A DNA stretch of 64,000 nt from Mytilus galloprovincialis. Taxonomy: Eukaryota; Mollusca; Bivalvia; Mytilida; Mytilidae. The stretch is taken from assembly GCF_965363235.1 (NCBI RefSeq), contig NC_134851.1:58399522-58463521 (forward strand). Direction: 5' to 3'. A program made the position numbers and the translations under genes. The notes beneath the pieces are model-generated. The model searched no databases. It saw only the letters and a list, made by a program, of their open reading frames with translations, and was not told where the DNA came from. Positions 2,030 to 39,582 of this stretch are shown one piece after another; within the stretch, counting starts at the first letter, position 1; each line of letters begins with the position of its first letter.

Positions 2030-4081
2030 ATGGATAACCATAATGACCTTCCATTCTTGTCTGTAAAATTATATCATTACCTTTCTGATGTTGTTGTTGG
2101 ATCTGAAAAAGTGGTCAAATATAGAAGATACTTTTATAAATGCTTTGATGACATCTTGGACGAGGGAAACGATAGAATAATCAGTAGCGGTAGCAAAGCA
2201 GAGGGTCTTGATCTTCCAGGTAGTGACCTAGATTTGATGTTGCGATCGTGTGTTTATATGGTTGACGACAAGCTTGGAAATACAAAAGAAAAGCATCTGA
2301 TTCTAGACACGGATAATGCTTTGCCAGGTTTTGCCATAGTTAAAGTTTCTGATGATAGTGATCTTATAAACGACATTAACGTCACGCAGACAGTTCATGG
2401 AAAACTTTTGAAAAATGATTTTTTTAAACAAACGAGTTTTCAAGCGATTAAAGAAGATTTCTCATTACCTTTTATTAATGAAAAACTGAAAATTGATGTT
2501 AAAACACCGTTTAAAATTCAGGGCCCAGCAATATCTACTGCACTCAAAGGAATGACGGATCTTGATTATGTCCGATGCCTTCCTTGTCGTGAATGGCCTT
2601 ATATTGCAAAATGTTGGTTACACAGAAATAGATTCGACAAATGGCCTCCGTCAAATTTGATATCAGAGGCAATACACGAAGGAGTGTTATTAGTACCTGT
2701 AGGAAGTAAATCTCCTTCTACGGAAGAAAACAACTCTGAATGGAGGTTTTCATTTTCTCTAACTGAAAAAATGTTAGTTCACTCATTCAACCACAGTCAG
2801 CTGCTGTGCTATGCCTTGTTAAAGATTGTTCTAAAAGAGATCATAAACGAAGTAAATATCTTTAACAAACTTTTATGTTCATATTACATGAAAACGGTTC
2901 TTTTCTGGGTCTTAGAAGAAGACGACCACTCATATTGGGCACCTGAAAACTTATTGCGTTGTTTTTGGTCATGCCTACAGCGACTTCATTATTTTATTGC
3001 ATGTAATTATATTCCAAATTATTTCATTCCTGAACATAATATGATTGAAGGAAGATTTTCAAAAAAAGTTGGAAAACAACTTGAAATTTTTATAGAAAAA
3101 TCTCTAATAGAAAATACGTGGAAAGTACTGTTGTCATTGGATTTATTTTCTGAATTACGGAATTCCACGTTTTATATTTCAAAACCTTTACATCTCATTT
3201 CAGAATTCGATAAAACCATGATTACTATGAATATACCGGACTATTCAGAATGGATGGCAGACAGAGCATTTAGATCATTAAGTTTCTTTGTTTACAGAAT
3301 TCGAAATGCGTATTGTCCAACTTTTTTGAAAAACATCTATGCAATTGCATTACTAGACTTGTGTAAAAATATAGCAACTTCTATAGATATTCGTTCAGTT
3401 GATTCTCAAAAAAGCAGTAATAAGCATTATTACTCTCAATATAAACAATGTTTATCCCATCTACTGTTGAATTTAAACAGCGACGCCGTGTCAGGTTGGT
3501 TGCTACTTGCAGCATTTTTTTACACTTGTCAGGAATACCAAAAGATGAATGCTATACTTCAAATTTCAGAAGAAATTTTATCTAGTGATTTATATACAGT
3601 GTCTCACTGGGCGGATTTATCTGCAATAAAGCAAATTACATTTGAAAAATTGTTAGTTCCAAGTAGACAATTCCTCAAAAGGTTAAGACATTCATTGGTC
3701 AGATCTTTTGTTGTTGAAAGAGATGGTCAAAATTACGACAGTTTTATATTTCACGAAGATCTGTCTCTTTCCGGAGATGACTTTGGTATAGGAACTCCAA
3801 CAGTATTTGTACGCTACCTCACATTCTTATATTTTCACCAACTAAACAATACAAAAGAAATGAACTGTGCGTTGCTGTTGTTACAAGAAGCTGTTGAAAG
3901 ATCCGCGCGGTTAGATGGAATTTCCATTTTTTTGAATTATCATTTTTTGTCACATGCGCAGTCATTAATTGGTGTTTATGAAATTGAAACAATCAAGAGA
4001 ATGTTTTCCGTTATTAAGCCTTTTGATGTTACAGGTATATTATCAGCCTTTGAAAAAGAGTTGAAGCTTGATGTGGATTAG
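2030..4081 (+). CDS. Mab-21/cGAS-like nucleotidyltransferase (cGLR-like), gene 1
   Basis: A 683-residue protein encoded in one exon. Seen: GS at residues 54-55 followed by the paired acidic residues D66 and D68 (SDLDLM), a third Asp at 179 (LDYVRCLPCREWP, matching the cGAS VDI...WP strand), WPPSNL near 205, and the Mab-21 signature EWRFSFSLTEK at 237-247. Family knowledge: this triad binds the metals used by cGAS and related receptors to make cyclic dinucleotides when they sense nucleic acid; Mab-21 proteins share the fold without always being active. Here the triad is complete, so catalysis is plausible but unproven. No cGAS-type zinc thumb, signal peptide or membrane segment is seen. The C-terminal 330 residues look helical, with a conserved AVSGWLLLAAFFYTCQEY stretch near 485 and PFDVTG near 664; this extension is longer than in cGAS. 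The start is chosen because it aligns in all three paralogues after the splice site. Confidence 0.9.
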   Translation: MDNHNDLPFLSVKLYHYLSDVVVGSEKVVKYRRYFYKCFDDILDEGNDRIISSGSKAEGLDLPGSDLDLMLRSCVYMVDDKLGNTKEKHLILDTDNALPGFAIVKVSDDSDLINDINVTQTVHGKLLKNDFFKQTSFQAIKEDFSLPFINEKLKIDVKTPFKIQGPAISTALKGMTDLDYVRCLPCREWPYIAKCWLHRNRFDKWPPSNLISEAIHEGVLLVPVGSKSPSTEENNSEWRFSFSLTEKMLVHSFNHSQLLCYALLKIVLKEIINEVNIFNKLLCSYYMKTVLFWVLEEDDHSYWAPENLLRCFWSCLQRLHYFIACNYIPNYFIPEHNMIEGRFSKKVGKQLEIFIEKSLIENTWKVLLSLDLFSELRNSTFYISKPLHLISEFDKTMITMNIPDYSEWMADRAFRSLSFFVYRIRNAYCPTFLKNIYAIALLDLCKNIATSIDIRSVDSQKSSNKHYYSQYKQCLSHLLLNLNSDAVSGWLLLAAFFYTCQEYQKMNAILQISEEILSSDLYTVSHWADLSAIKQITFEKLLVPSRQFLKRLRHSLVRSFVVERDGQNYDSFIFHEDLSLSGDDFGIGTPTVFVRYLTFLYFHQLNNTKEMNCALLLLQEAVERSARLDGISIFLNYHFLSHAQSLIGVYEIETIKRMFSVIKPFDVTGILSAFEKELKLDVD

Positions 4082-5829
4082 TAAACAGTAAAGCAACATT
4101 TGATATATATATATTATGAATTTACCTTTAACAGGCAACACATCGGAACTGAAAGTGTAAAAGACAAGTATTCAAGACTTTTAAGACGTTTAAGCTTACA
4201 GTGTCATTGGAATTGTGTGTTGCTAACACTAGGTAGAGGTACAAAATGTATTTAAATGGTTTGCCGATTGAAAGATCGATTAGGAAATTTTAGTCAATGC
4301 CCTTGACCATAAATCCGTGATTTTTCTCTTTTTTTAGTACCAAAGAAACACTTCGTACAGATCGAAGATGATTCCTTTACATATAAAAAAGAAGATGTGG
4401 TATGATTGCCAATGAGACAACTATCCACAAAAGACCAAAATGACACAAACATTGCATGCCTTTTTATGGACAATTTGCAATTGTACCTTGCCTAGTTGTA
4501 AGCACACTTTTACAGATAGTGCAAGAAGAGATTGGTCTCGTGGCCATTTTTATCGGTCGTCTGTAGTCTTTCCATATATATATATTTTGAATATCGAGAC
4601 AAAACTCTGAGTCCTAAGTACACTTGGAAATCAAATATTTCCATAAATTGTTCTTGATGACATTTATATTTATATGTTATCGTGTTCGCCGCTAATTTAA
4701 TGAAGATTGAACGACAAAAGTCTAGCCTACGCACGGGCCCTTTACCTTGTTTTACCTTCAATTGTTTTATAGCAAAATGACACTTTAAGTCTACGTGAAT
4801 ATCGGAGATGATATGTTTTCTAGACAATCTTTTGAAAGATTTGTAGCATCGTCTTGATACAGTGCTCTCCGATAGTCTTTCAAAACATAATTTTGATAGC
4901 AGGATAATTGGGAATCTCAACTTTAGCTTCCCATAGTAACATTAATTTACTAAAATGATATTGTCAATTGTAACTGACCGTTTATGTGTGTTTTCAATAT
5001 AAGTTTTATAATGTATTTAACAGACAAGTTGTCCTATTTCATTGCTCAATAGGTATAAACTATACATATTTAAAGAGGTCATTACAAAAAGAATCCTCGT
5101 TTCTTTTTCCAATATAACTGTTTTATCTATGGCTTACTTTTTTATGTCCTTGGATATTAGAACTTTTATTAATTTTGTATTAAAACAAAATATTAATTAA
5201 GAGCATACTGTTATCAGCTAGATTGATATTTTATATCGAATGATAGTATATGATCAGATTCCTCTATGTTACACGTCTTCTAATGAGATGTAGATTTTGT
5301 AGATATTCTCATCTTTGATAACTGAATGTTGCGGACAAACACTCTGCATGACTGTATTCTTTATAAAATGTACAGCTGTAATGCATGTCAATTTGTAAAA
5401 TTGGGACAAAATAATTTTACTGGTGCTAAACTGTATTAAAATATGAAAACAAACCTAAAAAATGTACAATTTTAAAAATATTTCAGTTTTGTTATATAAA
5501 TTAAGCGTACTTATATTAGTAATTTAAACAAATTTATTCATTTGAATTTTCCCTATTCAGAAAATAGACTACGTTCTTTCCTTTTTCTTCCTCTTTTTTC
5601 TATATATTTTATGTATTTATACCAACTGGATATGTTTTGAATAATCTAGTCTTTCTGACTGCAACCATACTATCATGAAGAAATTTCACTTGAGTCTAAA
5701 ATATATATATCTCATAATTATTTTACATTTTTTCTTTTGACATGGAAAGACAATTAACCTAACGAAAAATTAATTATAGTGCATTCCCTAAGCATGCTAC
5801 GCAATATATTCCGAATATGATTTTTGGTT
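4082..5829. other. Non-coding stretch with a short SINE-like repeat piece
   Basis: No convincing gene. At about 4385-4450 there is a piece of a dispersed repeat ('gaagatgtggtatgattgcc...gagacaact') that recurs, sometimes reversed, at 22955-23035, 28700-28770 and 32340-32390. A minus-strand open frame at 4510-4920 begins with TTG and resembles no family I know; it may be repeat-derived. The rest is AT-rich with poly-T runs and TA stretches. Confidence 0.5.
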
Positions 5830-5833
5830 TTAA

Positions 5834-6422
5834 GGTAGATCACAAGTATGTATTTTTTGAGACAGATTTTTTTTATAATTTGGCAAAATGAAGATTTTAC
5901 TATGCTCTTTTCAAAAATTTAATAAAAAGTATTGGTCACCGTGCTATTTTTCAAGCTATGAGTCGTTGAATATTGCCGAAATTTGGTTAGTTTGTTCATG
6001 AAAAAACACATAAGTGTGCATAAAAAAATTCTATGAGATAGAATTTTGAAATAAATTGTGAGAAGAAAGGTTTCATAATATGTTTTAAAGAAAACATGGT
6101 GTCACCGAACTTGTTTTCTTGCTACAAGTAAAAATAAAAAAAATTGCCTATTAGCCCAGTATAAATTTTGTACTAAGAGAGTTATCTGCCCTTAAATGGC
6201 TAATTTGAAGAAAAAAAAATGACTTTAAAACCAAAAAAAAAATGATATTTGTTAAAATATTTTGTATAATACAATTAAATAACAAGTTTTCTTTAAATTC
6301 AAAAAGCATTCTAACAATTGAATTACAAATGTATCTCCAAATTTGCAGATTTAGGCAAGTAACTAGACCGATTTTGTACTGTGATTGTACAATCCAAGAT
6401 GACGGTATACCATGAATCTACC
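5834..6422. mobile_element. MITE-like element with TTAA flanks
   Basis: A 589-bp segment bounded by TTAA on both sides (5830-5833 and 6423-6426) with short inverted ends: GGTAGATCACA at the left and, reversed, GGTAGATTCAT at the right. TTAA target duplications are typical of piggyBac and Kolobok-type elements and their non-autonomous derivatives. The interior is AT-rich and has no open frame. The inverted repeat is only about 10 bp, so a chance match is possible. Confidence 0.5.
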
Positions 6423-6426
6423 TTAA

Positions 6427-6754
6427 TTAAGAATGTCTTTGATATATATTTTTATATAAATATATATATATCAGTCTAACGATTTGCACAACGGTACTGA
6501 TATAAGGTGTTAGTAAACGAAAAGGTTGTTATTAAATCGTGTTGAAAAATATTTCGGCTCAACAAATGGCCTTCTTCTTGTATCACAAATTTTAACAATA
6601 CTGATACATAATGTATAAGGTGTGGAAATAAATTGGTAATAATACAGGTAATTTTTGGTCGATTGATTTTAATCCAAAATCCTGAATATAAAAATATAAA
6701 CAAAACACTGTAGTTCAATATACATGACTGTGTATATCTGTGTACAAACCATAT
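6427..6754. other. AT-rich spacer
   Basis: Holds a TA-rich run (about 6440-6472) followed by 'cagtctaacgattt', a phrase that also appears near 58565. A minus-strand open frame (6476-6718) shows no recognisable domain. I see no gene. Confidence 0.4.
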
Positions 6755-7265
6755 TTGTCATTATTTTATTATGTATAAATTTATTACAAACTATTTTATA
6801 CCCGAACATCATATAATTGAAGGGAGATATCCAACCTAAATTTTGCAACAACTTGAAGTTTTTCTTGCAAAACTAAACGGTGATATCTACGAAACCATTT
6901 CAAAGACTACTCCATTAGCGTCGTTGTTACACACTCCGTTCGATGTAACAAAGCAAATTCCTGAATTTGATCAACAATTCTGACAATGAGTATTCCAGAG
7001 TACACGCCATTCCAACCCTAAGTAAATCGTTCATTACAATTCTTTGTCCAAAGGAAACTGAAAGAGAACTTTCCAAAATATATTAAAGAAGTTTACACTA
7101 TTACATTATTAGACACCAATAGATCAATAGCCAATTCTGTTAAGATACAATCGAAATCACAAGAGAACAGAAACAAAAGGTACTACTTAAAGTAAAGACA
7201 ATGTTTGGTGCTGAATGTGAACATAGATGCTGTCTCAGGCTGGCTTTTACTAGCATCATTTTTCT
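6755..7265 (+). pseudogene. cGLR-like pseudogene fragment A (C-terminal part)
   Basis: Nucleotide similarity to the C-terminal half of the cGLR-like genes starts at 'cattattttattatg' (residue 319 of gene 1) and runs to the AVSGWLLLA..F stretch near residue 495. It reads as PEHHIIEGRYPT, then decays with several stops and frame changes (for example a stop right after IEGRYPT). At 7266 the similarity ends abruptly where a minus-strand gene fragment (7256-7910) joins. Its closest relative in the window is fragment B at 8424-9570, with which it shares wording that the intact genes do not (VFLAKLNG, SIPEYTPF-like). The nucleotidyltransferase half is absent. Confidence 0.8.
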
Positions 7266-7910
7266 AAACAAACAAACATCAGCTTTCCAGAAGATATGCT
7301 AGATGAGAATTCAATGGTGTAAACTGAACCTTGTTCCTTTGTATATTCAATGTCTATTGTATCTCTTTCTGCATTGTATGAAACGACATTTCCTGAATAC
7401 CAACCGACATTCCATCCATCTTTACCAACTGTTGTTCCAAGTTCATGTCTCTCCCAGAAAACCTTCACCCTAGATCCGCTTTCTTTACATTGTTCAAAAC
7501 AGTTTATTTCACTCTTATGGTCATTTGAAAAGGAAACATCTCTTTTGGAATCAATTTCCTGCTGAACTGCAGAGAAGTTGTCTAACCATACACTGATTGG
7601 GTCAAATATTTTGTGCAAATTTTCCTCATTACATCCATCCGGAACTTCTATAACATTCTTTGTCACACTGGGCACAGATGAAAATTTTCTTTTTCTACGT
7701 ATATGGAATCTTTCGTTATAATAACGGCGCTGATTGACAATTAAGGCAGTTGCAACTTCTATAGATTTCCTGATTTCTTGCTGTGCATAGTCTTTAATAA
7801 CATTTCTTTAAAGTCGTATCATATACATGGCACACTTATAACACTCAGGCCTTGTTATGCCATGTTCACATTGCCCTATATTCAGTCGTGTGTAAGTGTA
7901 ATTTGCACGT
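7256..7910 (-). pseudogene. Broken gene fragment: Cys-rich segment plus Tudor-like barrel
   Basis: Read on the minus strand, from about 7910 downward: a plausible 3' splice site (tgtgtttag), then RLNIGQCEHGITRPECYKC (a possible zinc-binding C-x2-H, C-x2-C group), one in-frame TAA after MYMIRL, a basic helix-like stretch (RRYYNERFHIRRKRK), then a 60-residue block SRVKVFWERHELGTT..DGWNVGWYSGNVVSYNAERDTIDIEYTKE. That block, with aromatic residues and V-x-Y/W strand pattern, resembles a Tudor or similar small beta-barrel. No ATG begins the 139-residue open part, so it is either an internal exon or a dead copy; the stop favours dead. I do not recognise the parent gene. It lies in the opposite direction to the two cGLR fragments that flank it. 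Confidence 0.5.
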
Positions 7911-8423
7911 AAACTAAACACAATTAAGTTCACATTGATAATACTGAATGTTTTACGTAATTTAAATCATGTTTTGTCTACATGCAGTCGATAATAAATG
8001 TAGGCCTTATGTGGGTTAAGTATATATTCAAAGAAGAAACGTTTTTTGAATAAAGTTGATATTTATAACAATTATTTATATAGTTCTAAACAGAATTATT
8101 TGTCTAAATTAGACATATTGCTTTGTTATGAAAAATACTTTAGGTAGATTTATAAACCCCTTTTCAAGAACAAAAACTTATCATTGCCAAACACTACATA
8201 TGAAAACATTTTCCTGAATCGACTTAGCGTACACATCAATATTTTCCACTGGTCTTTTCTTAATAAACGGTTAAGTCATTAATTTTCTTTTCTTAATGAA
8301 CGAATAATGCATTACTAAAAACCAAGTGTGCGGTAAACTGTATTGTTTAGCTAGTAAATCAGATATAGTAACATGCATTATTTAGTCATATCAAGACTAG
8401 AAGCATTATCAGCATTCACAGAT
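7911..8423. other. Non-coding spacer between cGLR fragments A and B
   Basis: AT-rich, no open frame with a recognisable product. The end of the stretch, 'ttcacag' just before 8419, could be a 3' splice site for fragment B. Confidence 0.4.
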
Positions 8424-9570
8424 TCCATTATTTTATTATGTATAAATACATTCCAAATATGTTTTGCCATGTGATTATGGACTTTCCGAATTGATTTTCC
8501 TCTAAGTTCAGTATTTTTGTGATTTTACTTTTTATTTCATACCCGAACATAATATGATTGAAGGGAGATATCCAACCGAAATTTTGCATCAACATGAAGT
8601 TTTTCTTGCAAAACTAAACGGTAATACCTACGAAACCCTTTTAAAGACTACTTCGTTAGCATCGTTTTTACAAACTTCGTTCGATGTAACAAAGCCAAAT
8701 TCTGAATTTGATCAAACATTTCTGACAATGAGTATTCCAGAGTACAAGCCATTCCAACCCTTAGTAAAGCGATCATTACAATTCTTTGATCACAGGATAC
8801 TGAAAGAGAACTTTTCAAAACATATTAAAGAAATTTACACTATTACATTGTTAGACACCAATAGATTAATAGCCAATTCTGTTAAGATACATTCACCTGA
8901 GAACAGAAACAAAAGGTACTACTTAAGGTATATACAATGTTTGTGCCACCTGGTGCTGAATGTGAACATTGACGCTGTCTCAGGCTGGCTTTTACTAGCA
9001 TCATTTTTCTACTCTTGTCACGAATATCAAAAGATGATTGCAGAGAAGTTGTTTTTGTCTATTGATGTACATTTAAAATCTGACTGGTGGAACAATACTA
9101 CACTTAAGGAGGTTAAACGTATGGAAAACACAATTCGAAGTACAAGTAGGTCATTCTTAAAAAGATTAAGAAGTTCAATGATTAAATCGGTCGATTATAG
9201 AAAGAACAAGGAAAATAAGGGTAGCTTTATATTCAATAAAGATCTTGCTCCTGCAAGAACGGCTTTCCACATGGGAACTCCTATCGTGTTTTTGCACTAT
9301 CTTAATTTTCTAGTGTTTTACAGACAAACGAAAACACACGAAATGGTCCATACATTTCAATTGTTAAGAAAAGCTGTTGAAAGCTCATTTGATTTAGACA
9401 TATGGACCTCATCGGCGAATGGTTTATTTCCATTAACAGCAGCGATGTTGAAAGGCGACAAATATGTGCTTTCAAATGTGCCAAAATATTTTACAGCCAT
9501 CAGATCATCAGATGTGACAGGTACTTTTTCACAAATAGAGAGAGACTGCCTAAAGGCATTAGAAAGATAG
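8424..9570 (+). pseudogene. cGLR-like fragment B (C-terminal half only)
   Basis: An open frame of 338 codons (8554-9570) aligns with residues 341-683 of the intact genes: MIEGRYPT at the start, NIDAVSGWLLLASFFYSCHEYQKM in the middle and SSDVTGTF near the end. Homology begins earlier, at 8424 (HYFIMYKYIPN), but is cut by an 80-bp dispersed repeat at about 8459-8537 that brings a stop. The whole nucleotidyltransferase core is missing. The protein is clearly more divergent from genes 1-3 than they are from each other, so it belongs to another subfamily. An unbroken kilobase of frame means either recent death or selection on a C-terminal-only product; the first is simpler. It starts at the same internal point as fragment A. 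Confidence 0.75.
8459..8537 (+). repeat. Dispersed repeat piece inserted in cGLR fragment B
   Basis: The phrase 'gttttgccatgtgatta...ggactttccg...gttcagtatttttgtg' recurs at about 34893-34990 and 61020-61115. In fragment A the same coding position is uninterrupted, so this is an insertion. Confidence 0.7.
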
Positions 9571-13689: not shown

Positions 13690-16600
13690 ATGTTCAAATA
13701 TTGTTATCTTTACATGGATATAATAAACTAATTTACTATGCAGCTATATATAGTGCTAATATGGTCTGTTTTGGTTAAAATTCGAGTCAGTCTGAGGTTA
13801 GAAAACTACTAAAATTTCAATATTTTGAATAAAAAGTACATGCTGGCACTCTAAATTGATACAAACAAAATTTTTTAGTCATAATATTCAAATATTGCTA
13901 CCTTTTTCATTATACAATCAATCCTTACATGAAAATATAACTCATGTACTATGCAGCTATATAGATTTACATAATAGAATGCTTATATGGTCAGTTTTGG
14001 TTGTTGCGAACAAATAATCTTATTATATGAGTCAGTCTGAGGTATGAAAACTACTGAATTTTTTTATGATTCAATATTTTGAATAAAAAAGTACATGCTG
14101 GCACTCTAAATTGATGCGAACAAAATTTTTTAGTCATAATATTCAAAAATTGCTACCTATTTTCTTATACAATCAATCCTTACATAAAAATATAACTCAT
14201 TTACTATGCGGCTATATAGATTTACATAATTAAATGCTTATATGGTCAGTTTTTGTTGTTGCGGACAAATAATTTTATTATATGAGTCAGTCTGAGGTAT
14301 GAAAACTACTGAATTTGGTTTATGATTCAATATTTTGAATAAAATAAGGACATGCTGGCCCTCTAAATTGATGCGAACAAAATTTTTTAGTCATAATATT
14401 CAAATATTGCTACGTATTTTCTGATACAATCAATCCTTACATGAAAATATAACTCATTTACTATGCAGCTATATAGATTTACATAATAGAATGCTTATAT
14501 GGTCAGTTTGGTTGTTGCGGACAAAAAAATTTATTATATGAGTCAGTCTGAGGTATGAAAACTACTGAAGTTTGTTTATGATTCAATATTTTGAATAAAA
14601 AAAGGACATGCTGGCCCTTTAAATTGATGCGAACAAATTTTTTTCATTCATAATATTCAAATATTGCTACCTATTTTATTATACAATCAATCATTACATG
14701 AAAATATAACTCATTTACTATGCGGCTATATAGATTTACATAATTAAATGCTCATATAGTCAGTTTTGGTTGTTGCGGACAAATAATTTTATTATATGAG
14801 TCAGTCTGAGGTATGAAAACTACTGAATTTTGTTTACGATTCAATATTTTGAATAAAAAAAGGACATGCTGGCCCTCTAAATTGATGCGAACAAAATTTT
14901 TTATTCATAATATTCAAATATTGCTGGCCCTCTAAATTGATGCGAACAAAATTTTTTAGTCATAATATTCAAATATTGCTACCTATTTTATTATATAATC
15001 AATCCATACATGAAAATATAACTCATTTACTATGCGGCTATATAGATTTAAATACTAGAATGCTTATATGGTCAGTTTTGGTTGTTGCGGACAAATAATT
15101 TTATTATATGAGTCAGTCTGAGGTATGAAAACTACTGAATTTTGTTTACGATTCAATATTTTGAATAAAAAAAGGACATGCTGGCCCTCTAAATTGATGC
15201 GAACAAAATTTTTTATTCATAATATTCAAATATTGCTACCTATTTTTTTATACAATCAATCATTACATGAAAATATAACTCATGTACTATGCGGCTATAT
15301 AGATTTAAATACTAGAATGCTTATATGGTCAGTTTTTGTTGTTGCAGACAAATAATTTTATTATATCAGTCAGTCTGAGGTATGAAAACTACTGAATTTG
15401 GTTAACGATTCAATATTTTGAATAAAAAAGGGACATGCTGGCAACCTAAATTGATGCGAACAAAATTTTTTAGTCATAATATTTAAATATTGCTACCTAT
15501 TTTATTATACAATCAATCATTACATGAAAATATAACTCATTTACTATGCGGCTATATAGATTTAAATACTAGAATGCTTATATGGTCAGTTTTGGTTGTT
15601 GCAGACAAATAATTTTATTATATGAGTCAGTCTGAGGTATGAAAACTACTGAATTTGGTTTACGATTCAATATTTTGAATAAAAAAGGGACATGCTGGCA
15701 ACCTAAATTGATGCGAACAAAATTTTTTAGTCATAATATTCAAATATTGCTACCTATTTTATTATACAATCAATCCTTATATGAAAATATAACTCATGTA
15801 CTATGCAGCTTTATAGATTTACATACAAGAATGCTTATATGGTCAGTTTTGGTTGTTGCGAACAAATAATTTTATTATATGAGTCAGTCTGAGGTATGAA
15901 AACTACTGAACTTTTTTATGATTCAATATTTTGAATAAAAAAGTACATGCTGGCACTCTAAATTGATGCGAACAAAATTTTTTAGTCATAATATTCAAAT
16001 ATTGCTACCTATTTTCTTATACAATCAATCCTTACATAAAAATATAACTCATTTACTATGCGGCTATATAGATTTACATAATTAAATGCTTATATGGTCA
16101 GTTTGTGTTGTTGCCGACAAATAATTTTATTATATGAGTCAGTCTGAGGTATGAAAACTACTGAATTTTGTTTATGATTCAATATTTTGAATAAAAAAAG
16201 GACATGCTGGCCCTCTAAATTGATGCGAACAAAATGTTTTAGTCATAATATTCAAATATTGCTACCTATTTTATTATACAATCAATCCATACATGAAAAT
16301 ATAACTCATTTACTATGCGGCTATATAGATTTAAATACTAGAATGCTTATATGGTCAGTTTTGGTTGTTGCGGACAAATAATTTTATTATATGAGTCAGT
16401 CTGAGGTATGAAAACTACTGAATTTTGTTTACGATTCAATATTTTGAAAAAAAAAAGACATGCTAACACTCTAAATGGATGCGAGTAAATTTTTTTAGTC
16501 ATAATACTCAAATACTGCTATCTCTTTCATTATACAATCAATTCTTACATGAAAATATAACTCATTTACTATGCCGCTATATAGATTTAAATACTAGAAT

Positions 16601-17410
16601 GCTTATATGGTCAGTTTTGGTTGTTGCGGACAAATAATTTTATTATATGAGTCAGTCTGAGGTATGAAAACTACTGAATTTTGTTTACGATTCAATATTT
16701 TGAATAAAAAAGTACATGCTGGCACTCTATATTGATGCGAACCAAATTTTTTAGTCATAATATTCAAATATTGCTACCTATTTTCTTATACAATCAATTC
16801 TTACATGAAAATATATCTCATTTACTGTGCGGCTATATAGATTTACATAATGAAATGCTTATTTGGTCAGTTTTGAGTGTTGCGGACAAATAATTTTATT
16901 ATACGAGTCAGTCTAAGGTAAGAAAACGATTGAATTTTGTTTGAGATTCAATATTTTGAATGAAAAAGGACATGCTGTCACTCTAAATTGATGCAAAAAA
17001 ATAAATTATGTCATTATATTTAAATATTGCTTCCTTTTTTATCATACAATCAATCTTTATATCAAAATATAACTCATTTACTATGCCGGCTATATAGATT
17101 TACATAATAAATTGCTTATATGGTCAGTTTTGGTGTTGCAAACAAATAATCATATATTACGAGTTAGTCTGATGTATGAAAACTACTGAATTTTGTTTAC
17201 TATTCAATATTTTAAATAAAAAGAGGTCATGTCCGTCAGGCTGGTACAAAAATTGCTGTCAATTGTTACGTACAATGTATTATATGGTCAATTATGGCAT
17301 GAAAATATAACTGAATTACTTCTATATAGAATAAGATAACTTGTTAAGAGGTAAATATTGTCAGTTTTGGTTAATGATATCAATTTTGTTTTACGAGTCA
17401 GTCTGTCTAA
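13690..17410 (+). repeat. 256-bp satellite array, about 14 units
   Basis: The marker phrase GAGTCAGTCTGAGGTATGAA recurs with starts of its GGTAT at 14041, 14296, 14552, 14810, 15122, 15379, 15636, 15893, 16148, 16405, 16661 and 16917, with degraded units on either side (13796, 17173). Spacing is 255-258 bp except one 312-bp step, where about 55 bp of the unit is duplicated (near 14885-14990). Central units are most alike and edge units most diverged, the usual pattern for arrays kept uniform by unequal exchange. Open frames of 64-76 codons in three units are chance products of the repeat. Confidence 0.9.
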
Positions 17411-25789: not shown

Positions 25790-26451
25790 CAGTGTTCAGC
25801 TTTTGTATATACAGTGTAACCTTACTAATCCGACACCTGAGTATTCCAACATCCTACTTCAACCGAAACATTTTCATGGTTTCAAAATATACCTGTGTGA
25901 TGTTAAACTATTGTTTCAGATAAAGGGGAAGATTTGGTACAATTCAAACGTTTATTCCCGCTGCAGATGTGTGCACCTATCCTAAGTCAGGAATCTGATT
26001 TACAGTATACGTTGTTTGTTTATGTAGTTCATAAGTGTTTCTCGTTTCTCTTTTTTTTTTTATAGATTAGACCGTTGGTTTTCCAGTTTGAATGGCTGAA
26101 CATTACTAATTGTTTGGGTCCTTTATAGGTTGCTGTTCTGTGTGAACCAATGCTCCGTGTTGAAGGCCGTACCTTGGCCTATATATATGTATGGTTTACT
26201 TTTATGAATTGTTTTTTGGATGGAGATATCTATTCTCCCAGAAAACACCTGAGTATTAAGGCACCCAGCTTAATCCAATATTTTGTTCTGGTCTTCTATT
26301 GTGTCAGACTACGTAGGTTACACTGTACTTGTACCGTGTGTGTACCTTTTACTAGTAAAGTCCAATCTATGAACTAAATTTAATTCTATATATAATAGTT
26401 TATCTTTATTTTTCAGCTTGCAGTTTTGAAATTGAAACTTTTTTTTAAGAA
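25790..26451 (+). promoter_or_regulatory. Conserved 5' region and 3' splice site of gene 2
   Basis: Two blocks (25790-25892 and 26227-26451) match 37165-37491 before gene 3, including 'ctaatccgacacctgagta' and 'tgtaccttttactagtaaa'. A T-rich tract ends in cag at 26414-26416, 36 bases before the ATG, as in genes 1 and 3. Conservation suggests promoter or 5' exon/intron sequence, but some of it may simply reflect recent duplication. Confidence 0.6.
25893..26226 (+). repeat. R3 repeat inserted in the gene 2 5' region
   Basis: About 330 bp absent from the gene 3 copy. Wording such as 'gtttctcgtttctc' and 'agattagaccgttggttttc' recurs reversed at 28690-28985 and, more diverged, at 63335-63620. 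Confidence 0.75.
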
Positions 26452-28518
26452 ATGGATAATCAAAACGATCTTCAATTCTTATCTGTCAAATTATATAATT
26501 ACCTTTCCGAGGTTGTTGTTGGATCCGAAAAAGTGGTAAAATATAGAAGATACTTTTATAAATGCTTCGATGACACCTTGCTCTTGAGAGACTACAGAAT
26601 AATCAGCAGCGGGAGTAAAGCCGAGGGTCTTGATCTTCCTGGTAGTGACCTAGATGTGATGTTGCAAACTCATGGTTATATGGTTGATGAAAAACTTGGG
26701 AGCACATTGGAAAAGCATTTGATTCTAGACACAGATAATGCTTTGCCTGGTTTTGCTTTAATAAAAGTTCCTGATCAGAGTGATTTTGTAGACGAGATTG
26801 ATGTCACACAGACAGAGGATGGATTAGTCTTGAAAAACGATGTTTTAAAACAATCGCGTGTTGAAGTTCTAAATAAAGCATCTTCAATGATTGCCCTTGC
26901 TAAAGTACTGAAAATGGACGTTCAAACACTATGTAAGGTTCAGGGTCCAGCTACGAATTCTGCAGTCGAAGGAGTGGCGGATGTGGATGTGGTTCACTGC
27001 CTTCCTTGTCGTGAATGGCCTTCGATTGCAAAAAGTTGGTTACAAAGAAATAGATGCTTCAAATGGCCCTCGTCAGATGTGATGGCAGAGGCAATACATG
27101 AAGGCGTGTTATTAGTACCCGTAGGAAGTAAGTCTCCTACCTCTGACGAAAACAACTCTGAATGGAGGTTTTCGTTTTCTCTAACTGAAAAACTGTTAGT
27201 TCACTCATTCAACCACAGCCAGCTGTTATGCTATGCCTTGCTAAAGATTGTTTTAAAAGAGATATTTAACAAAGTACATATTTTTCACAAACTTTTATGT
27301 TCATATTACTTAAAAACGGTTCTATTTTGGGTCTTAGAAGAAATCGATGACTCATATTGGGTACCAGAAAACATATTGCGTTGCTTTTCTTTGTGCCTAC
27401 AGCGATTGCATTATTTCATTTCATGTAACTATATTCCAAATTACTTTATACCTGAACATAATATGATTGAAGGAAGATTTACAAAAAATATTGGAAAACA
27501 ACTTGGAATGTTTGCAGAAAAACTTCTTATCGGAAATATATGGAAAGTGCTGTTGTCAATTGATTTACTTTCCGATTTACGTCGTAATTTGTGCTATGTC
27601 TCGAAACCCTTCAAAGTTATTTCAGAATTTGACAAAACCATAGTTGCTATGAAAATTCCAGACTGGACTCAATGGATTGTAGATATATTATGCAGATCAT
27701 TGAGTTTCTTTGTTCACAGAATTCGAAATGAGTACTGTCCAACATTTTTCAAAAACATCTATGCCATTGGCTTATTAGACCTGTGTAAAAGAAAAGCAAT
27801 TTCTATAAAAATGCGTTCAACTAGTTCACAGCACATCAGTAATAAGCATTATTATTCTAAATATAAACAATGCTTATTCCATTTACTGCTGAATTCAAGC
27901 GGCGACGCCGTGTCAGGTTGGTTACTACTTGCATCCTTTTTCTACACTTGTCAGGAATATCATAAGATGAATGCTATACTTTCACTTACAAAGGAGATTT
28001 TATCTCGGGATTTGTATACAGTGTCTAATTTTATGGACCTTTCTACGGTCAAGCAAACTACATTTGAAAAACAGTTAGTTCAAAGTAAGCAATTCCTCAA
28101 AAGGTTGAGACATTCATTAATCAGATCTTTTACTTTTCACAGGAATGAACAAAATGCTGATAGTTTTATATTTCACGAAGACCTGTCCATTGACGGAGAG
28201 GATTTTTCTATAGGAACGCCAATAGTGTGTATACGCTATCTTACATTCTTGCAATGTTTCAAACAAAGCAATACAGAAGGAATGAACCGTGCTTTTGTGA
28301 TGTTACAGGAAGCTGTTGAAAAATCACCGCATTTAGATTCTATTTCCATTTCCATAAACTTCAGTTATTTATTACATGCACAGTTATTAATTGGTAATGA
28401 TGGAATTGAAACACTCAGAAAAATGTTTTCCGTTTGTAAACCTTTCGATGTTACAGGGAAATTATCAAGTTACCAGGCAGACTTTGAAAAAATGGTAAAG
28501 TTTTATTTGAATGAATAG
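26452..28518 (+). CDS. Mab-21/cGAS-like nucleotidyltransferase (cGLR-like), gene 2
   Basis: A 688-residue, single-exon paralogue. GS at 54-55, D66 and D68 in SDLDVML, D179 in DVDVVHCLPCREWP, EWRFSFSLTEK near 237 and PEHNMIEGRF near 334 are all intact, so the metal-binding triad of the cGAS fold is complete. By eye it is closer to gene 3 than to gene 1 over the whole length; it shares with gene 3 the wording MDNQNDLQFL and DVVHCLPC. Differences concentrate at residues 41-50, just before the GS motif, at 70-78, and at 129-175, between the second and third catalytic Asp. The C-terminal extension is helical-looking, with DAVSGWLLLASFFYTCQEY and PFDVTGKL. No targeting signal. Role in nucleic-acid sensing is inferred from the family. 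Confidence 0.9.
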   Translation: MDNQNDLQFLSVKLYNYLSEVVVGSEKVVKYRRYFYKCFDDTLLLRDYRIISSGSKAEGLDLPGSDLDVMLQTHGYMVDEKLGSTLEKHLILDTDNALPGFALIKVPDQSDFVDEIDVTQTEDGLVLKNDVLKQSRVEVLNKASSMIALAKVLKMDVQTLCKVQGPATNSAVEGVADVDVVHCLPCREWPSIAKSWLQRNRCFKWPSSDVMAEAIHEGVLLVPVGSKSPTSDENNSEWRFSFSLTEKLLVHSFNHSQLLCYALLKIVLKEIFNKVHIFHKLLCSYYLKTVLFWVLEEIDDSYWVPENILRCFSLCLQRLHYFISCNYIPNYFIPEHNMIEGRFTKNIGKQLGMFAEKLLIGNIWKVLLSIDLLSDLRRNLCYVSKPFKVISEFDKTIVAMKIPDWTQWIVDILCRSLSFFVHRIRNEYCPTFFKNIYAIGLLDLCKRKAISIKMRSTSSQHISNKHYYSKYKQCLFHLLLNSSGDAVSGWLLLASFFYTCQEYHKMNAILSLTKEILSRDLYTVSNFMDLSTVKQTTFEKQLVQSKQFLKRLRHSLIRSFTFHRNEQNADSFIFHEDLSIDGEDFSIGTPIVCIRYLTFLQCFKQSNTEGMNRAFVMLQEAVEKSPHLDSISISINFSYLLHAQLLIGNDGIETLRKMFSVCKPFDVTGKLSSYQADFEKMVKFYLNE

Positions 28519-30810: not shown

Positions 30811-31017
30811 TTATCGCTGTTTAATCATCATTCTTGTAGATTCATAAAAGTAGAAAAATCCTTTCCATGTTAGGCACATAATACCATTGGCAACTTTTGA
30901 GTGTTTTCCACCTAAATATTCCCCATTTAAGTAGGAAGAATAAAAACTTCGGACATACCATGCTCCTTCATACCTTTCGCCACAGCTATAATATCTTAGG
31001 TCATTATCCTTGTCTTT
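30811..31017 (-). pseudogene. Fibrinogen-related domain C-terminus fragment
   Basis: Sixty-eight minus-strand residues read as the end of a fibrinogen-related domain: KDKDND (the calcium-site D-x-D-N-D), SCGERYEGAWYV (usual CA..Y.GAWWY), SSYLNGEYL (usual SNLNG.Y), then GIMCLTWKGFFYFYESTRMMI (usual GI.W..WKG.YYS....MKI) and a stop. Such domains occur in FREP and ficolin-like lectins, which are secreted recognition proteins expanded in mussels. The second of the usual pair of cysteines (in WWY..CH) is replaced, which argues against a normal fold. On its 5' side it runs directly into retroelement tail sequence with no splice site at the join, and no other exon of the domain is seen, so it is most likely a dead fragment. 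Confidence 0.65.
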
Positions 31018-31210
31018 AGTAGAAGACATAACACAACATAGAAAACTGAAGAATAAGCAACACGAACCCCACCAAATCCTATGGGTGATCCAAGGTGCCT
31101 CTGATAGGTAAGCAGATCCTGCTCCACATGTGGCACCCGTCGTGTTGCTCATGTTATAACAAATCTGGTAAATAGTCTTATTCAGTAGGTCACATAAAAG
31201 GGAAGGGGAT
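31018..31210 (-). mobile_element. Retroelement tail fragment
   Basis: Matches the sequence that follows the reverse transcriptase piece at 56340-56560 ('gcaacacgacgggtgccgca', 'gtggggttcgtgttg', 'ttctatgttgtgt'). It is a 3' portion without coding capacity, next to the fibrinogen-domain fragment. Confidence 0.65.
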
Positions 31211-31261
31211 TGTAGTTACGACATAAAGATCATATTTGATATTTGTAAAACGGTTATTATA

Positions 31262-32399: not shown

Positions 32400-33560
32400 A
32401 CATAGCGATGCCAGTGTCTGAGCAGAAACTTGATGAAGCAAGGATATGTAATAAAATCTCGTCTTTTTTTCCTTAAAAAAATACATGGAGGGTGATGTTA
32501 GTGTCTGGGCAAAAAGTTGATGAACCAGTGGTACATGAAAGAAGGTCTCAAAAATTGATTGCGGGCGTTGCCAGTGTCTGTGGAAGAAAGTTGAAGAACC
32601 AGTGGTATTCCAAAGAACGTCTCGCCCTTTTTAAAAAAAAAAGTCCTGCAGGGTGATGCCAGTGTCTGAGTAGAAAATTGAGGAACTAGTGGTATATCAA
32701 AGTACATTTCGTAATTTAAAAAGAAAGAAAATGCATAGAGGGTGATACCAGTGTCTCAGTTAAAAGTTGAAGAACCAGTGGTATATCAAAGAACGTCTCA
32801 AAAAACAATTGAGGGCGATGCCAGTGTCTGAGTAGAAAGTTCAAGAACCAGTGGTATATCAAAAACGTCTCCTCCTTTTTTATAAAATCAAAATCCACGG
32901 AGGGTGATGACTGTGTCTCAGCAAACAGTTGAAGAACAAGTGGTATAACAAAGAACGTCTCGAAAATTGATTAAGAGTGATCCCAGTGTCTGAGTAGAAG
33001 GTTCAAGAACCAGTTGTATATCAAAGAACGTCTCGTCCTATTCATAAAAACAAAAGCCATGGAGGGTTATGACTGTGTATCAGCAAACAGTAGAAGAACC
33101 ATTGGTATGCCAAAGAACGTTTCGTCCTATTTATAAAAACAAAATCCATGGAGGTTGATGACTGTGTATCAGCAGAAAGTTGATGCGAAAAGTTGATGAA
33201 GCAGGTGTATGTAAAAGAACGTCGCGTCCTTTTTATAAAATATGAAAATTATTCATGGAGGGTGATACCAGTGTCGGAGGAGAAGGTTGAGAAACCAGTG
33301 TTATATCAAAGAATGTCTCGTCCTTTTTTTAAAAACAAGTCTATGGAGGGGGATACCAGTAACCGAGCAAAAAGTTGATGAAGCAGGCGTATGACAAAGA
33401 ACGTCTCGTCCTTTTTATATAAACAAAAACATCATTGAGGGTGATGTCAGTGTCTGGGAAGAATTTAAGGGAACCAGTGGTATGTCAAAGAACGTCTCGC
33501 CCTTTTAAAAAAAATCATGGTGGGTGATGTCAGTGTCACAGCAGAAAGTTGAAGAACAAG
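32400..33560. repeat. Minisatellite, about 14 units of 75-105 bp
   Basis: Recurring 'gtgatgccagtgtctgag', 'agttgaagaaccagtggta' and 'caaagaacgtctcgtcct' with spacing mostly 74-91 bp. Units alternate between a longer type with an A-rich tail and a shorter type. Short open frames on both strands reflect the repeat. Confidence 0.85.
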
Positions 33561-33599
33561 GGGTATGTCATAGAGCATATCGGCCTTTTATATATGAAA

Positions 33600-35944
33600 A
33601 AAAATTCTATTCCAATACATTGTTGATAAATATTCCATATCAACTTCACAAATGATACTCGATGGCCTTGCAATATAGGTTCTGAGTACTTACGTTGCTT
33701 ATCATAGCGATAACGTGTTACAGTATACTTTCATTTGTATTACACACTTATAGCTTCTGAGTGAGGTCGATACAAGGAAATATTGACCTATAAAGTATAT
33801 TAACTGACGACGACTGCTATAATTGTTATAATATTAATCTCCGAGCATATTTCTATCAAATCGTCAGTGTAATATATATTCGATTATTTGATTTTGTTAA
33901 AAATTTAAAGATATCATATTGTGTCATATACAATAACCACGAATTATTTGTTCGTTGTTATTTTTATAAAAAAAATCAATTATAAACTTTGTTATTTTTT
34001 ATTAACAATATCATGCAATTCATTACTTGACGTCACAAAGAATATCAGTTTTTAGATTTTCTACACAAAAACATCGTTTAAGCTTTATGCTATCCGCCGT
34101 ATTTTATCTACGTCGAAAGTATAGTGTAACATGCGACTACACTTAAACGATTTAAATTATTTATTAATATTACTTTACTGTATGGTCTGTTATTTTGTTA
34201 TATCCATTTGTTATATCTATTTGACGTGACTCTGTACTTTTGTATCCCTTTGTTGAGTTATTGTTCAATACTTTTGTTTTAATTTCTTTCACTTTTGCTG
34301 ATGTGCTTTGTCTTTGTATGTTTTAGTGTTTCTTTGATACATATGACGTGGTTTTGTACATCCCGCCATTTTGTTATTGTTCTTTTATAGTTTTGTATAC
34401 CTCTCTTTCGTATACGTATTTGCTTATGCTTTGTGTTCCTTTGATACATAATTACGTGGCTATTTTTCAGAAGAAATTAATAATAAGCATATAGATAAGA
34501 GGCAAGAATGACAGGGACATTTGTGATTTAGATTATGAAGAGAATATGCATAAGATAACTTTCATACTTTGAAAGACATTTTTGTTTATATCCCTACCGT
34601 GAGGTTGTACAATTTGATATATGCCTTTTTGCACTTCTTTGTTAAATATTTGTTTGTTTTATAGTGAATTAGATTCAATACAATTTGACAGCTGTACCCC
34701 TGTCTTTTTACATTGTTACCTAATATATCTATTTGTTTTGTTAACGCATATTTATCAATTATTGTAATTCAATGCAACTGTCATGCAAAAGAAAGGTTTA
34801 ACCAGCTATAATCCAGGCTCAATCCATCTTTTTCTACAAAAGAAAATGAATGTACCAAGTCAGGAATATGACAGTTGTTTAATATTTAATTCATTCGTTT
34901 GACGTGTTTGGGATTTTGATTTTTCTATTTGATTAGGAACTTTCCGTTTTGAATTTTTCCCGCAGTCCAGTTTTTTTGTGATTTTACTTTATAGTCCACT
35001 CTGTAGTAACTGTATTTTTGCAAAGTCAATGTTGGACTTTCTTTGAGAACATTATGTGTCTTGAAGAAACCATGGATGCCCTCCAAGGTTGAAAGTAGTT
35101 TTAGAATAACCAGAGTTAAGCAAAGGAGCACACATGTATATGATTTACTGTGAGAGAACTTATCCAGAAACGCTATGCTCGTCTACTGCAAATATTTACT
35201 TTAAAAATTACAAACTCAACTACCACTCATAAAAGCAAATATTAATACTATACCTGTCCATGAGATATAAAGCGCCAACAGTTAATGTGAATAGTTGGCA
35301 AATATTATCTAAATACAAATTTTAAAGTCAAAGGAATGAAATTGTTTTGAAGTCAAAACTTTGAATAATCAAGAATAAGATTTGTTTGAATTAAATAAAA
35401 GCAGCTTTATTAAAACCTAATATCATAAATAATAATTATGAATCAATTACAGTGTGTGCTACAATAGTGAAAATACATGAATAGTAAAATATAGGTCACT
35501 TACTAAAAACAGCTGATCTCTATGTAATCTAATTTGAAATTGACTATACTTTTTTTCTAAACGTTTAAAGGATTCAGTTAATCAATACACCTAAAAATAG
35601 TACGTGTGTACACAATATGAAAGTAACCAAAATGGCCATAAAATTAACAAGTTCGATTTGGGATAATTCTAACATTATAAAAGGATAAATATGGATTAAA
35701 TAGGATGCATTAATGATTTCTGAATAAGGTAATTTTGTTGTATTTATAGAAAATCATTCCGCATAACAAGCATGTGTACAAAAAATGAAAACATGTATGA
35801 CCTAGTTTCGCGGAAAATACGAATGAATGAAGGTTATTATTAAAGGATACTTGAAATAATCGTGGCACAACAACGTACGATTTTTTTTTCTTAAATTGGA
35901 AAATGCTTTGATATTTCATTTTACTGTTGTAATTAGTTGTTATG
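33600..35944. other. Non-coding stretch
   Basis: No gene seen. Contains a TGACGTCA palindrome at 34028-34035 and a dispersed repeat at about 34790-34990 ('gtaccaagtcaggaatatg', 'gaactttccg', 'tttttgtgattttac'), related to those at 8459 and 52990. Remaining sequence is AT-rich. Confidence 0.45.
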
Positions 35945-36305
35945 TTATAATAAATGATGTTTTACGTTGACTGAAATATTGTAATTTGACTGTTGTTTCG
36001 GTGTACCGGTCATAAATATAACATTACTATAATAAATAGATGTTTGTATCTTTCGCAGCTAAAAACAATGTACAATTTCAGAAAAGACAATAACAAAACA
36101 AGTGTAATTGTATTAAGTTTCAATTCCTTTGTTTATTAGCCTCGTACACATCTAGCTGATATTCAGAGATACTGTATCTGGTCGTGGTGGCGAATCTGTT
36201 TCTTGTTTGGGTTTTAACTTAATCCTTTTTTTTAATGATCAGCAGACTTATATGATTTATGTATGTGACGTCATTAGACATGACCTCCTTTTTCGTGTCG
36301 TCACA
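35945..36305 (+). repeat. Duplicated block D2, gene 3 side
   Basis: Counterpart of 21335-21708. Contains TGACGTCA at 36266-36273 and continues without interruption into sequence equivalent to 24904-25190. A shorter related piece lies downstream of gene 3 at 39780-39900. Confidence 0.75.
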
Positions 36306-36529
36306 ATAGAAAATTTAAGGAACATCAAGAACATTTGACGTCATAATCGGAGATAAATAAATAAAAAACAACTTAGAGTAAACAAACCATCTGTTAATAA
36401 AAATAACAGTTGCGCAAAAAGTAGAGAAGTTTCCTGACCACACTATCTGCTCTATTTTTATCATATGTTTTACAAAACTTTGAATTTTCCGAAAAACTAA
36501 TCCCAGGAATAGCAATTAATAGATAACAT

Positions 36530-37035
36530 TAGCCGTATTTGGAACAACTTGTTGGAATTTTGGGTCCTCAATGCTCTTCAATTTTGTACTTGTTCGGCTT
36601 GTATAACTATTTTCATTTGAGCGTCACTGTTGAGTTTTATATAGACGAAACGAGCGTCTTGCGTACTTAATTATAATACTGGTACCTTTGATAACTATTT
36701 ACACCAATTGGTCGATGCCACTGCTGGTGGACGTTTTGTCCCCGAATGCATTACCAACTTATTGCAAGTAGTAAGTATTTCGGTATTGACATGAATATCA
36801 ATTTTATGGCATTTTATTTTATAAATTTCTTGTTACAAAACTTTGAATTTCTCGAAAAAAAAGCCGGATTTTGCACAATTTTGGGGAATTATGGGTCCCC
36901 AATGCTCTTCAACTATGTACTTGTTTGGCTTTATGACTATTTTGATCTGAGCGTCACTAATGAGTCTTATGTAGACGAAACGCTCGTCTGGAGTACTAAA
37001 TTATAATCCGGGTACCTTTAATAACTATTAACTAT
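36530..37035 (+). repeat. R1 repeat, tandem pair upstream of gene 3
   Basis: Cores near 36619 and 36950. Position relative to the gene matches the pair at 25190-25665. Confidence 0.85.
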
Positions 37036-37164
37036 TTTTTTTTTCAATTTTTGGTGTTCCGTTAAATTTCTAATTGGTATTGCGTGTATTCGATCTAGTT
37101 CGTTTGAGAAAATACAAAAATACAAATGAATAATAAAAAACTATATAAAAAACATGAAGCATTT

Positions 37165-37491
37165 ACAGTGTTCAGCTTTTATAAATACAGTGTAACCTTA
37201 CTAATCCGACACCTGAGTATTTCAACATCCTACTTTAACCGAAACATTTTCATGGTTTTAAAATATGCCTATCGTTCCAGAAAACATCTTCGTATTGAGG
37301 CCCCCTGCTTGTTCCAATGCTTTGTTCTTGTCATCCATTGTGTCGGACTACACAGGTTACACTGTACCTGTACATGGTGTGTACCTTTTACTAGTAAAAC
37401 TCCAATCTATGAACTAAACGTTAAATCTAAATATAACAATTCATCTTTATTTTTCAGCTTGCAGTATAAAGATTAAAGCTTTTACGAAGAA
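37165..37491 (+). promoter_or_regulatory. Conserved 5' region and 3' splice site of gene 3
   Basis: Matches the two blocks before gene 2, without the R3 insertion. T-rich tract ending in cag at 37455-37457, 34 bases before the ATG. Confidence 0.6.
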
Positions 37492-39582
37492 ATGGATAAT
37501 CAAAACGATCTGCAATTCTTATCCGTCAAACTATATCATCACCTTTCTGATGTTGTTGTTGGATCTGAAAAAGCTGTTAACTATAGAAGATACTTTTATA
37601 AATGCTTCGATGAAACCTCTCTCTTCGGACATTGTAAGGTAATTAGTAGCGGTAGTAAAGCAGAGGTTCTTGATCTTTCTGGTAGTGATATGGATTATAT
37701 GTTTCTCCCTCAAGGTTATATGGTTGAAGAAAAGCTTGGGAATACAAAAGAACAGCATTTGGTGCTAGACACAGATAATGCTCTGCCAGGTTTTGCCTTA
37801 ATAAAAATTTCGGATAATAGTGATTTTATAGGCAACATCAATGTCATACAGACAGTTGATGGACAACTCTTAAAAAACGACATTTTAAAACAATCGCGTT
37901 TTCAAGTTATGAATGAAGCTCCTTCAATGTTTGACCTTGCCAGATTACTGAAACTGGACGTTCAAACACCATTTAAGGTTCAGGGTCCAGCAATAACTAC
38001 TGCAATCGAAGGAGCGGCGGATGTAGATGTTGTTCATTGCCTCCCTTGTCGTGAATGGCCTTCAATTGCAAAACGTTGGTTGCACAGAAGTCGATGCTTC
38101 AAATGGCCCTCGTCAGATTTGATAACAGAGGCAATACATGAAGGTGTGTTGTTAGTACCCGTAGGAAGTAAGTCTCCTTCTTCTGAAGAAAACAACACTG
38201 AATGGAGGTTTTCATTTTCTTTAACTGAAAAACTGTTAGTTCACTCATTCAATCACACTCAGTTGTTGTGCTATGCCTTGTTAAAGATTGTTTTAAAAGA
38301 GATATTTAACAAGGTAAATATTTTTAACAAACTTTTATGTTCGTATTACTTGAAGACGGTTCTATTCTGGGTCTTAGAAGAAGTCGACCACCAATATTGG
38401 GTACCAGAAAACTTATTGCGTTGCTTTTCCTTATGTCTACAGCGTCTACATTATTTTATTTCATGTAATTATATTCCAAATTACTTTATACCGGAACATA
38501 ATATGATTGACGGGAGATTTTCAAAAATAACTGGAAAACAACTTGGAATGTTTGCAGAAAAACTTCTTATCGAAAATATATGGAAAGTGCTGTTGTCAAT
38601 AGATTTACTTTCTGATTTACGCCGTGATACGTGCTATGTTTCGAAACCCTTAAAAGTTATTTCAGAATTCGATAAAACCATGATTGCTATGAAAATACCA
38701 GACTGCACTCAATGGATTGAAGATATATCATGCAGATCATTGAGTTTCTTTGTTCACAGAATTCGAAATGAGAACTGTGAAAAAAATCTCAAAAATATCT
38801 ATGCAATTGCCTTACTAGACCTGTGTAAAAGAAAAGCAATTTCTATTACAATGCGTTCTATTAATTCACAGAACATCAGCAATAAGTTCTATTATTCTAA
38901 ATATAAACAATGCTTATTCCATCTACTGCTGAATTTAAGCGGCGACGCCGTATCCGGTTGGTTACTTCTTGCTACATTTTTCTACTCTTGTCAGGAATAT
39001 CGTAAGATGAATGTTTTACTACAACTTTCAGAGGAAATTATATCTCGGGATTTATATACAGTGTCTATATTAGGGGACTTGTCTGCGGTCAAGCAAACTT
39101 CTTTTGAAAAAAAGTTAGTTCCTAGTAAGCAATTCCTCAAAAGATTAAGACATTCAGTGATTAGATATTTTATTGTTCAAAAGAATGAACAAAATGCTGA
39201 TAGTTTTATATTTCACCAAGATCTGTCCATTGACGGGGACGATTTTTTTATGGGAACGCCACTAGTTTTTATACGCTATCTTACATTCTTATATTTTTAC
39301 AGACAAAACAATACAGAAGGAATGAACAGTGCAATTATGATGTTAAGGGAAGCTGTTGAAAAATCTCCACAGTTAGATGCTATTTCCATTAGTAGAAATT
39401 ATTGGTTTTTGGGAAATGCCTTATCATTAATTGGTAATGATGTTATTGAATGTATTGAAACAGTCAGAAGCATGATTTCCGCCCTAAAACCTTTTGATGT
39501 TACAGGTTTAATACAATACTGGACGGCAGATGTTGAAAATATTATAAGCCCTCTTTTAAAGATTTATCGAAAAGATTCATGA
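37492..39582 (+). CDS. Mab-21/cGAS-like nucleotidyltransferase (cGLR-like), gene 3
   Basis: A 696-residue, single-exon paralogue, the longest of the three because of a short insertion near the C-terminus (IECIETVRSMI) and a longer tail. GS at 54-55, D66 and D68 in SDMDYMF, D179 in DVDVVHCLPCREWP and EWRFSFSLTEK near 237 are intact. Around the GS motif it differs from its sisters: GSKAEVLDLSGSDMD in place of GSKAEGLDLPGSDLD, so the glycine and proline of the activation loop region are lost. Whether this alters activity cannot be judged from sequence. The C-terminal region keeps GDAVSGWLLLATFFYSCQEY and PFDVTGLI. It stands in the same orientation as genes 1 and 2 and shares extended upstream sequence with gene 2. 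Confidence 0.9.
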   Translation: MDNQNDLQFLSVKLYHHLSDVVVGSEKAVNYRRYFYKCFDETSLFGHCKVISSGSKAEVLDLSGSDMDYMFLPQGYMVEEKLGNTKEQHLVLDTDNALPGFALIKISDNSDFIGNINVIQTVDGQLLKNDILKQSRFQVMNEAPSMFDLARLLKLDVQTPFKVQGPAITTAIEGAADVDVVHCLPCREWPSIAKRWLHRSRCFKWPSSDLITEAIHEGVLLVPVGSKSPSSEENNTEWRFSFSLTEKLLVHSFNHTQLLCYALLKIVLKEIFNKVNIFNKLLCSYYLKTVLFWVLEEVDHQYWVPENLLRCFSLCLQRLHYFISCNYIPNYFIPEHNMIDGRFSKITGKQLGMFAEKLLIENIWKVLLSIDLLSDLRRDTCYVSKPLKVISEFDKTMIAMKIPDCTQWIEDISCRSLSFFVHRIRNENCEKNLKNIYAIALLDLCKRKAISITMRSINSQNISNKFYYSKYKQCLFHLLLNLSGDAVSGWLLLATFFYSCQEYRKMNVLLQLSEEIISRDLYTVSILGDLSAVKQTSFEKKLVPSKQFLKRLRHSVIRYFIVQKNEQNADSFIFHQDLSIDGDDFFMGTPLVFIRYLTFLYFYRQNNTEGMNSAIMMLREAVEKSPQLDAISISRNYWFLGNALSLIGNDVIECIETVRSMISALKPFDVTGLIQYWTADVENIISPLLKIYRKDS

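Follow-up and report, generated by a model that had tools for sequence, protein, structure and literature searches.

Three intact genes for cGAS relatives with a long helical tail, members of a tandem-expanded family in Mytilus galloprovincialis

Do neighboring genes that share a long addition to the cGAS fold have an architecture of their own, and what could this addition do? The question is raised by a 64,000-nucleotide stretch of the Mytilus galloprovincialis genome (contig NC_134851.1, positions 58,399,522 to 58,463,521, read on the forward strand), referred to here as the window. Three intact neighboring genes in it encode relatives of cGAS with a long helical tail, and they belong to a family of cGAS-like receptors (cGLRs) that has grown very large by tandem expansion. 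Their coordinates, strand and lengths were given exactly in a preliminary description of this DNA. The genes, and the parts of copy 3 to which the text refers, are as follows.

2030..4081, + strand: cGLR copy 1, 683 amino acids (core 1-349, extension 350-683)
26452..28518, + strand: cGLR copy 2, 688 amino acids (core 1-349, extension 350-688)
37492..39582, + strand: cGLR copy 3, 696 amino acids (core 1-349, extension 350-696)
37651..37695, + strand: GS motif and first two catalytic acids of copy 3 (residues 54-68), from the alignment
38026..38028, + strand: D179, third catalytic Asp of copy 3, opposite the third Asp in human cGAS and the matching Asp in 8gjy
38269..38544, + strand: ordinary Mab-21_C helical lobe of copy 3 (residues 260-351), from Pfam
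38542..39579, + strand: helical C-terminal extension of copy 3 (residue 351 to the end), from profile and model

Copy 3 shares 76% identity with copy 2 and 70% with copy 1. In all three copies, Pfam Mab-21 (PF03281) and Mab-21_C (PF20266) were matched above their curated cut-offs and together span residues ~90-351. The family profile matched the PDB entry 8gjy (cGAS-like receptor 1) with an E value of 1.4e-25 and human cGAS with one of about 1e-21, so the membership in the cGAS-like family proposed earlier is supported. The residues named as catalytic or characteristic, GS54-55, D66, D68, D179 and EWRFSFS (237-243), were present in each copy. To these copies 19 fetched loci, picked as full length with the extension, were aligned, giving 22 members drawn from seven large contigs; G54, S55, D66, D68, D179, E237-W238-R239 and S241-F242 were invariant in all of them. 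D179 aligned with the matching Asp of 8gjy and with an Asp of human cGAS which we take to be the third catalytic one. The profile alignments with PDB entries begin at profile position 99 or later, leaving D66 and D68 outside, and these two residues and the GS motif were aligned instead with GS...[D/E]xD of the short cGAS-like genes of the same genome. In L001, a MAB21-like gene of this genome, the GS is missing and a Gln takes the place of the third Asp, which makes it a useful negative control for the conservation of the catalytic residues. A loose cGLR pattern (G[S/G] loop, [E/D]h[E/D], third acid) was found in all 22 members, and two Pfam nucleotidyltransferase (NTase) families gave weak matches in 11 and 10 of them. 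The segment of human cGAS that is presumably the zinc thumb lay opposite a gap in the family-profile alignment, consistent with the described lack of a thumb.

For the three window pairs, the ratio of nonsynonymous to synonymous substitution rates (dN/dS) was 0.36-0.41 over residues 1-255, 0.11-0.16 over residues 256-350 and 0.41-0.50 over the extension. Since it did not exceed 0.50 in any region, constraint acts on every part, most weakly on the extension, and the three copies are under purifying selection. No sign of positive selection in the extension was seen in these pairs. The genes had been described as single-exon, and the coding sequence is indeed a single exon; upstream of each ATG, however, there is a pyrimidine tract with a CAG acceptor-like site which ends 34-35 nt before the ATG, and in each copy an in-frame TAA lies between the two. 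A non-coding 5' exon ahead of each copy is therefore likely, judging from the sequence.

1988..1995, + strand: acceptor-like TTTTTCAG before copy 1
26409-26416 and 37450-37457, + strand: acceptor-like TTTTTCAG before copies 2 and 3, respectively

The extension adds 334-347 residues past the usual cGAS core, as first described, and its start coincides with the point at which PDB structures cease to match the family profile (profile positions 328-352). Since the ordinary Mab-21 lobe ends at about 341-351 and the PDB matches stop at 328-352, the C-terminal region as a whole cannot be this lobe. The domain search proposed earlier for this region returned no Pfam family at the cut-off in residues ~350-690 of the three copies, with two weak sub-threshold matches only. 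From faint sequence similarity and a fold model, the extension may tentatively be called TPR-like. The best TPR match among the extension-bearing members, in locus L061, had an E value of 7e-5 and 23.4 bits (Pfam cut-off 30.1). No TPR repeat reached the curated Pfam score in the extension-bearing members, and none was listed for the window copies. Profile self-alignment gave no internal repeats in the extension, the best segment pairs being overlapping columns. Compared by sequence with solved structures, the extension had two matches up to an E value of 10, the better one (0.53) being the chaperone YscY, which we assume to be TPR-like. In the full-length model of copy 3 the mean predicted local distance difference test (pLDDT) score was 33.3, and in the NTase half, where D66, D68 and D179 would be expected to come together, most values were only about 20-30 because the alignment depth was too small. 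A domain-only model showed helix pairs in residues ~594-693 at pLDDT 65-86 (10-residue means). A likeness to IFIT proteins was listed for the full-length model and was not relied on, because it was not among the best 50 matches of the domain-only model. The TPR superhelices of Tom70 and IFIT5 were compared through the low-confidence model, and neither has a sequence match to the extension. Locus L043 is a long cGLR in which the profile did not detect the extension, and it has weak C-terminal TPR matches (TPR_12, E 8.2e-5).

Is the extension particular to this array, as the preliminary description suggested? A search with residues 361-696 of copy 3 gave matches at 120 places (120 of 120 scored candidates; 567 in a first look), and the extension of a member on contig C8 gave 122 (122 of 122 scored; 796 in a first look). 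After matches within 1.2 kb were merged, at least 184 distinct places in the genome encode the extension, a minimum in which truncated places and places with stops are counted. They are found on C8 (59), C13 (51), C14 (30), C5 (30) and eight other large contigs (14). By profile, the extension was present in 5 of 20 further loci with long frames (L041-L060), chosen high in the ranking of Mab-21 matches beyond the C14 cluster, and in all six further loci that had been fetched as extension matches. The main clades of the core tree also appear in the extension tree; minor points, for example how copy 1 and L012 are ordered, differ. An architecture specific to the array is thus ruled out, and with the concordant trees these places show that the extension marks a large genome-wide class. 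A second architecture, with N-terminal ankyrin repeats followed by a cGAS-like core and without the extension, was seen in L045, L046, L047, L051 and L053, i.e., in five of the ten loci scanned among L041-L060.

Neither the expansion nor the tail is without precedent. The available excerpts of PMC9980059 describe an extreme radiation of cGLRs, with more than 200 genes in some bivalves, and mention TPR- and ankyrin-bearing cGLRs. The window proteins resemble the animal cGLRs described there in the NTase core with its C-terminal helix bundle, the catalytic acids and the large expansion, and differ in the extension of ~340 residues that Pfam does not recognize in the window copies. In Crassostrea gigas, TRADD-N proteins carry a Mab-21/cGAS domain followed by TPRs (PMC8195603, from its available excerpts). 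The order of a cGAS-like domain and a TPR-type tail is the same; the C. gigas proteins are larger, with HEPN, immunoglobulin and DED-TRADD-N parts, whereas the window proteins consist of core and tail only. Hence, the three genes fall within a known kind of cGLR immune-gene expansion and are not a new kind.

The charge of the two parts suggests what the tail might do. The isoelectric point (pI) of the core is 6.2, 5.7 and 6.1 in copies 3, 2 and 1, and that of the extension is 8.6, 9.0 and 6.0, respectively. The extension pI is 8.6 or higher in 19 of the 22 aligned members; only copy 1, L012 and L063 fall below this value. Among 26 extension-bearing sequences, a set that includes near-duplicates (L017/L018), truncated sequences and one gene twice (L029/L032), 23 have a core pI below 7. 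Six stand-alone members have core pI values of 7.7-8.9; four come from one C5 cluster and one is the MAB21-like L001. L022, classed with them, is a frameshifted extension member with a core pI of 5.9. A rank test of extension-bearing against stand-alone members including L022 gave p 0.001, uncorrected for relatedness. A further 14 long members, among them several that carry ankyrin repeats, did not differ from the extension-bearing ones (p 0.61); 10 of these 14 have a core pI below 7. Sequences with a core match of less than 250 profile positions (e.g., L019 and L050) and L009-L011, which are the window genes, were left out of the comparison. The pattern across classes is therefore that stand-alone cores are basic and cores with appended domains are mostly acidic. 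Nucleic-acid sensing by cGLRs is tied to a pI above 8.5 and to long, positively charged ligand-binding surfaces in the available excerpts of PMC9980059. Given this link and the acidic cores, we place recognition in the appended part and infer that in these predicted synthases the recognition step has moved from the core to the tail.

Our best explanation, to which we give a probability of roughly 55%, is that the cGAS-type core and the TPR-like extension of ~340 residues form a ligand-sensing second-messenger synthase whose product would be read by STING. The extension would recognize either a partner protein or a ligand of pathogen origin or associated with danger, and this binding would order the active site. 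The core would then make a cyclic di- or oligonucleotide, which STING would read. Exon-like matches to the STING ligand-binding domain above the cut-off (27) were found in this genome on C3 (32.5 bits, with a stop inside) and C8 (29.8 bits). The strict cGLR pattern weighs against a synthase of this kind: h[QT]GS X8-20 [DE]h[DE]h X50-90 h[DE]h, as given in the available excerpts of PMC9980059, was matched by none of the 22 members. The pattern wants Gln or Thr before GS, where 21 members have Ser and one has Ile, and the methods of that paper allow 50-90 residues before the third acid, where the window copies and their clade have a longer spacer (108 residues in the window copies).

The explanation that survives best beside this one, although we consider it unlikely, is that the proteins are ordinary nucleic-acid-sensing cGLRs whose core binds dsDNA or dsRNA and whose extension just oligomerizes, localizes or scaffolds. 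Two oyster cGLRs are activated by dsDNA (PMC9980059, available excerpts), the profile places the window proteins in the same family as 8gjy and human cGAS, and a basic extension might do no more than raise the affinity for nucleic acids. Against this stand the acidic core of each of the three copies and the missing zinc thumb. In these two features and in the extra helical extension the window copies differ from vertebrate cGAS, with which they share the core homology and the third catalytic Asp.

We regard it as less probable still that the genes encode non-enzymatic Mab21 immune adaptors which activate a kinase by direct contact. The shrimp proteins LvMab21-1/2/3 interact with IKK-epsilon, and no cGAMP was made upon interferon-stimulatory DNA (ISD) or poly(I:C), according to PMC12928593; a TPR-like tail would also fit protein contacts. 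An adaptor, however, would not need the catalytic residues, which are invariant across the sampled members. A decaying array without present function is very improbable: the window does hold three decayed or truncated copies and many matches elsewhere bear stops, but the three full ORFs, the acceptor-like site conserved before them and the dN/dS values speak against it, and the last rule out pseudogenes for the intact copies.

The ligand-sensing synthase thus remains our preferred explanation, and the decayed copies correct the picture of an array of three intact genes.

6717..7270, + strand: decayed copy (equivalents of residues 307-499), frameshifted and cut by an insert
8533..9570, + strand: extension-only copy with an open ORF at 8554-9570 (338 amino acids, ~41% identity to the extensions of the intact copies)
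57630..59110, + strand: decayed copy (pieces corresponding to residues 30-93 and 596-683)

The next Mab-21 match is found 3.4 kb past the window, within a 739-codon frame whose first ATG lies ~3.1 kb past the window end (L016). Within C14 58.08-59.21 Mb, 26 extension places form a 1.1-Mb cluster. The array looks like the outcome of birth and death through tandem and segmental duplication. For the recent pair L016/L018, outside the window, the dN/dS of the extension was 0.90, on few changes.

Upstream of the extension-only ORF (considered together with L024) there are just short frameshifted pieces (~307-499) and no NTase core, and this ORF is possibly an extension-only gene. A 3.8-kb stretch 97.2% identical lies ~70 kb upstream of it (C14:58336115-58340035). 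An ORF of 183 amino acids (7259-7807, - strand), inserted in a decayed cGLR copy, matched no Pfam family at the cut-off. It has five genome matches, itself among them; one, next to L024, shows 100% identity over 179 residues, and others on C14 and C3 are part of longer frames. The pairs L018/L017, L037/L038 and L029/L025 are 98.2-99.8% identical and ~1.05 Mb apart (C14:58109-58128 kb and 59159-59178 kb), reflecting either a recent segmental duplication or a retained haplotype. Between L021 and L025 the dN was 0.003 in the first 255 residues and 0.065 in the extension, which suggests gene conversion or an exchange of tails between copies.

Elsewhere in the window, a fragment of a fibrinogen C-terminal domain (30811-31215, - strand; E 3.8e-13) is possibly an exon or a relic of a fibrinogen-related gene. 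A satellite array with a 257-bp unit in about 13 copies occupies 13816-17231. The reverse-transcriptase-like fragment at 261-1016 (- strand; weak PF00078, E 0.0074, below the cut-off) and the ORF at 56561-56971 (- strand), which resembles it by eye, are probably retroelement remains. An Rfam scan of the window gave nothing at the gathering threshold.

For the family as a whole, a tentative and rather doubtful proposal is that M. galloprovincialis has a very large cGLR repertoire in which recognition has passed from a now-acidic core to a TPR-like tail that evolves faster and is usually basic. One conserved second-messenger engine would in this way serve many sensors, in a logic like that of NLRs. 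An acidic core with a constrained, faster-evolving and mostly basic tail would offer a testable answer to how many copies could differ in ligand. It is this charge pattern that deserves to be followed; otherwise, the locus illustrates well an immune-gene expansion of a known kind.

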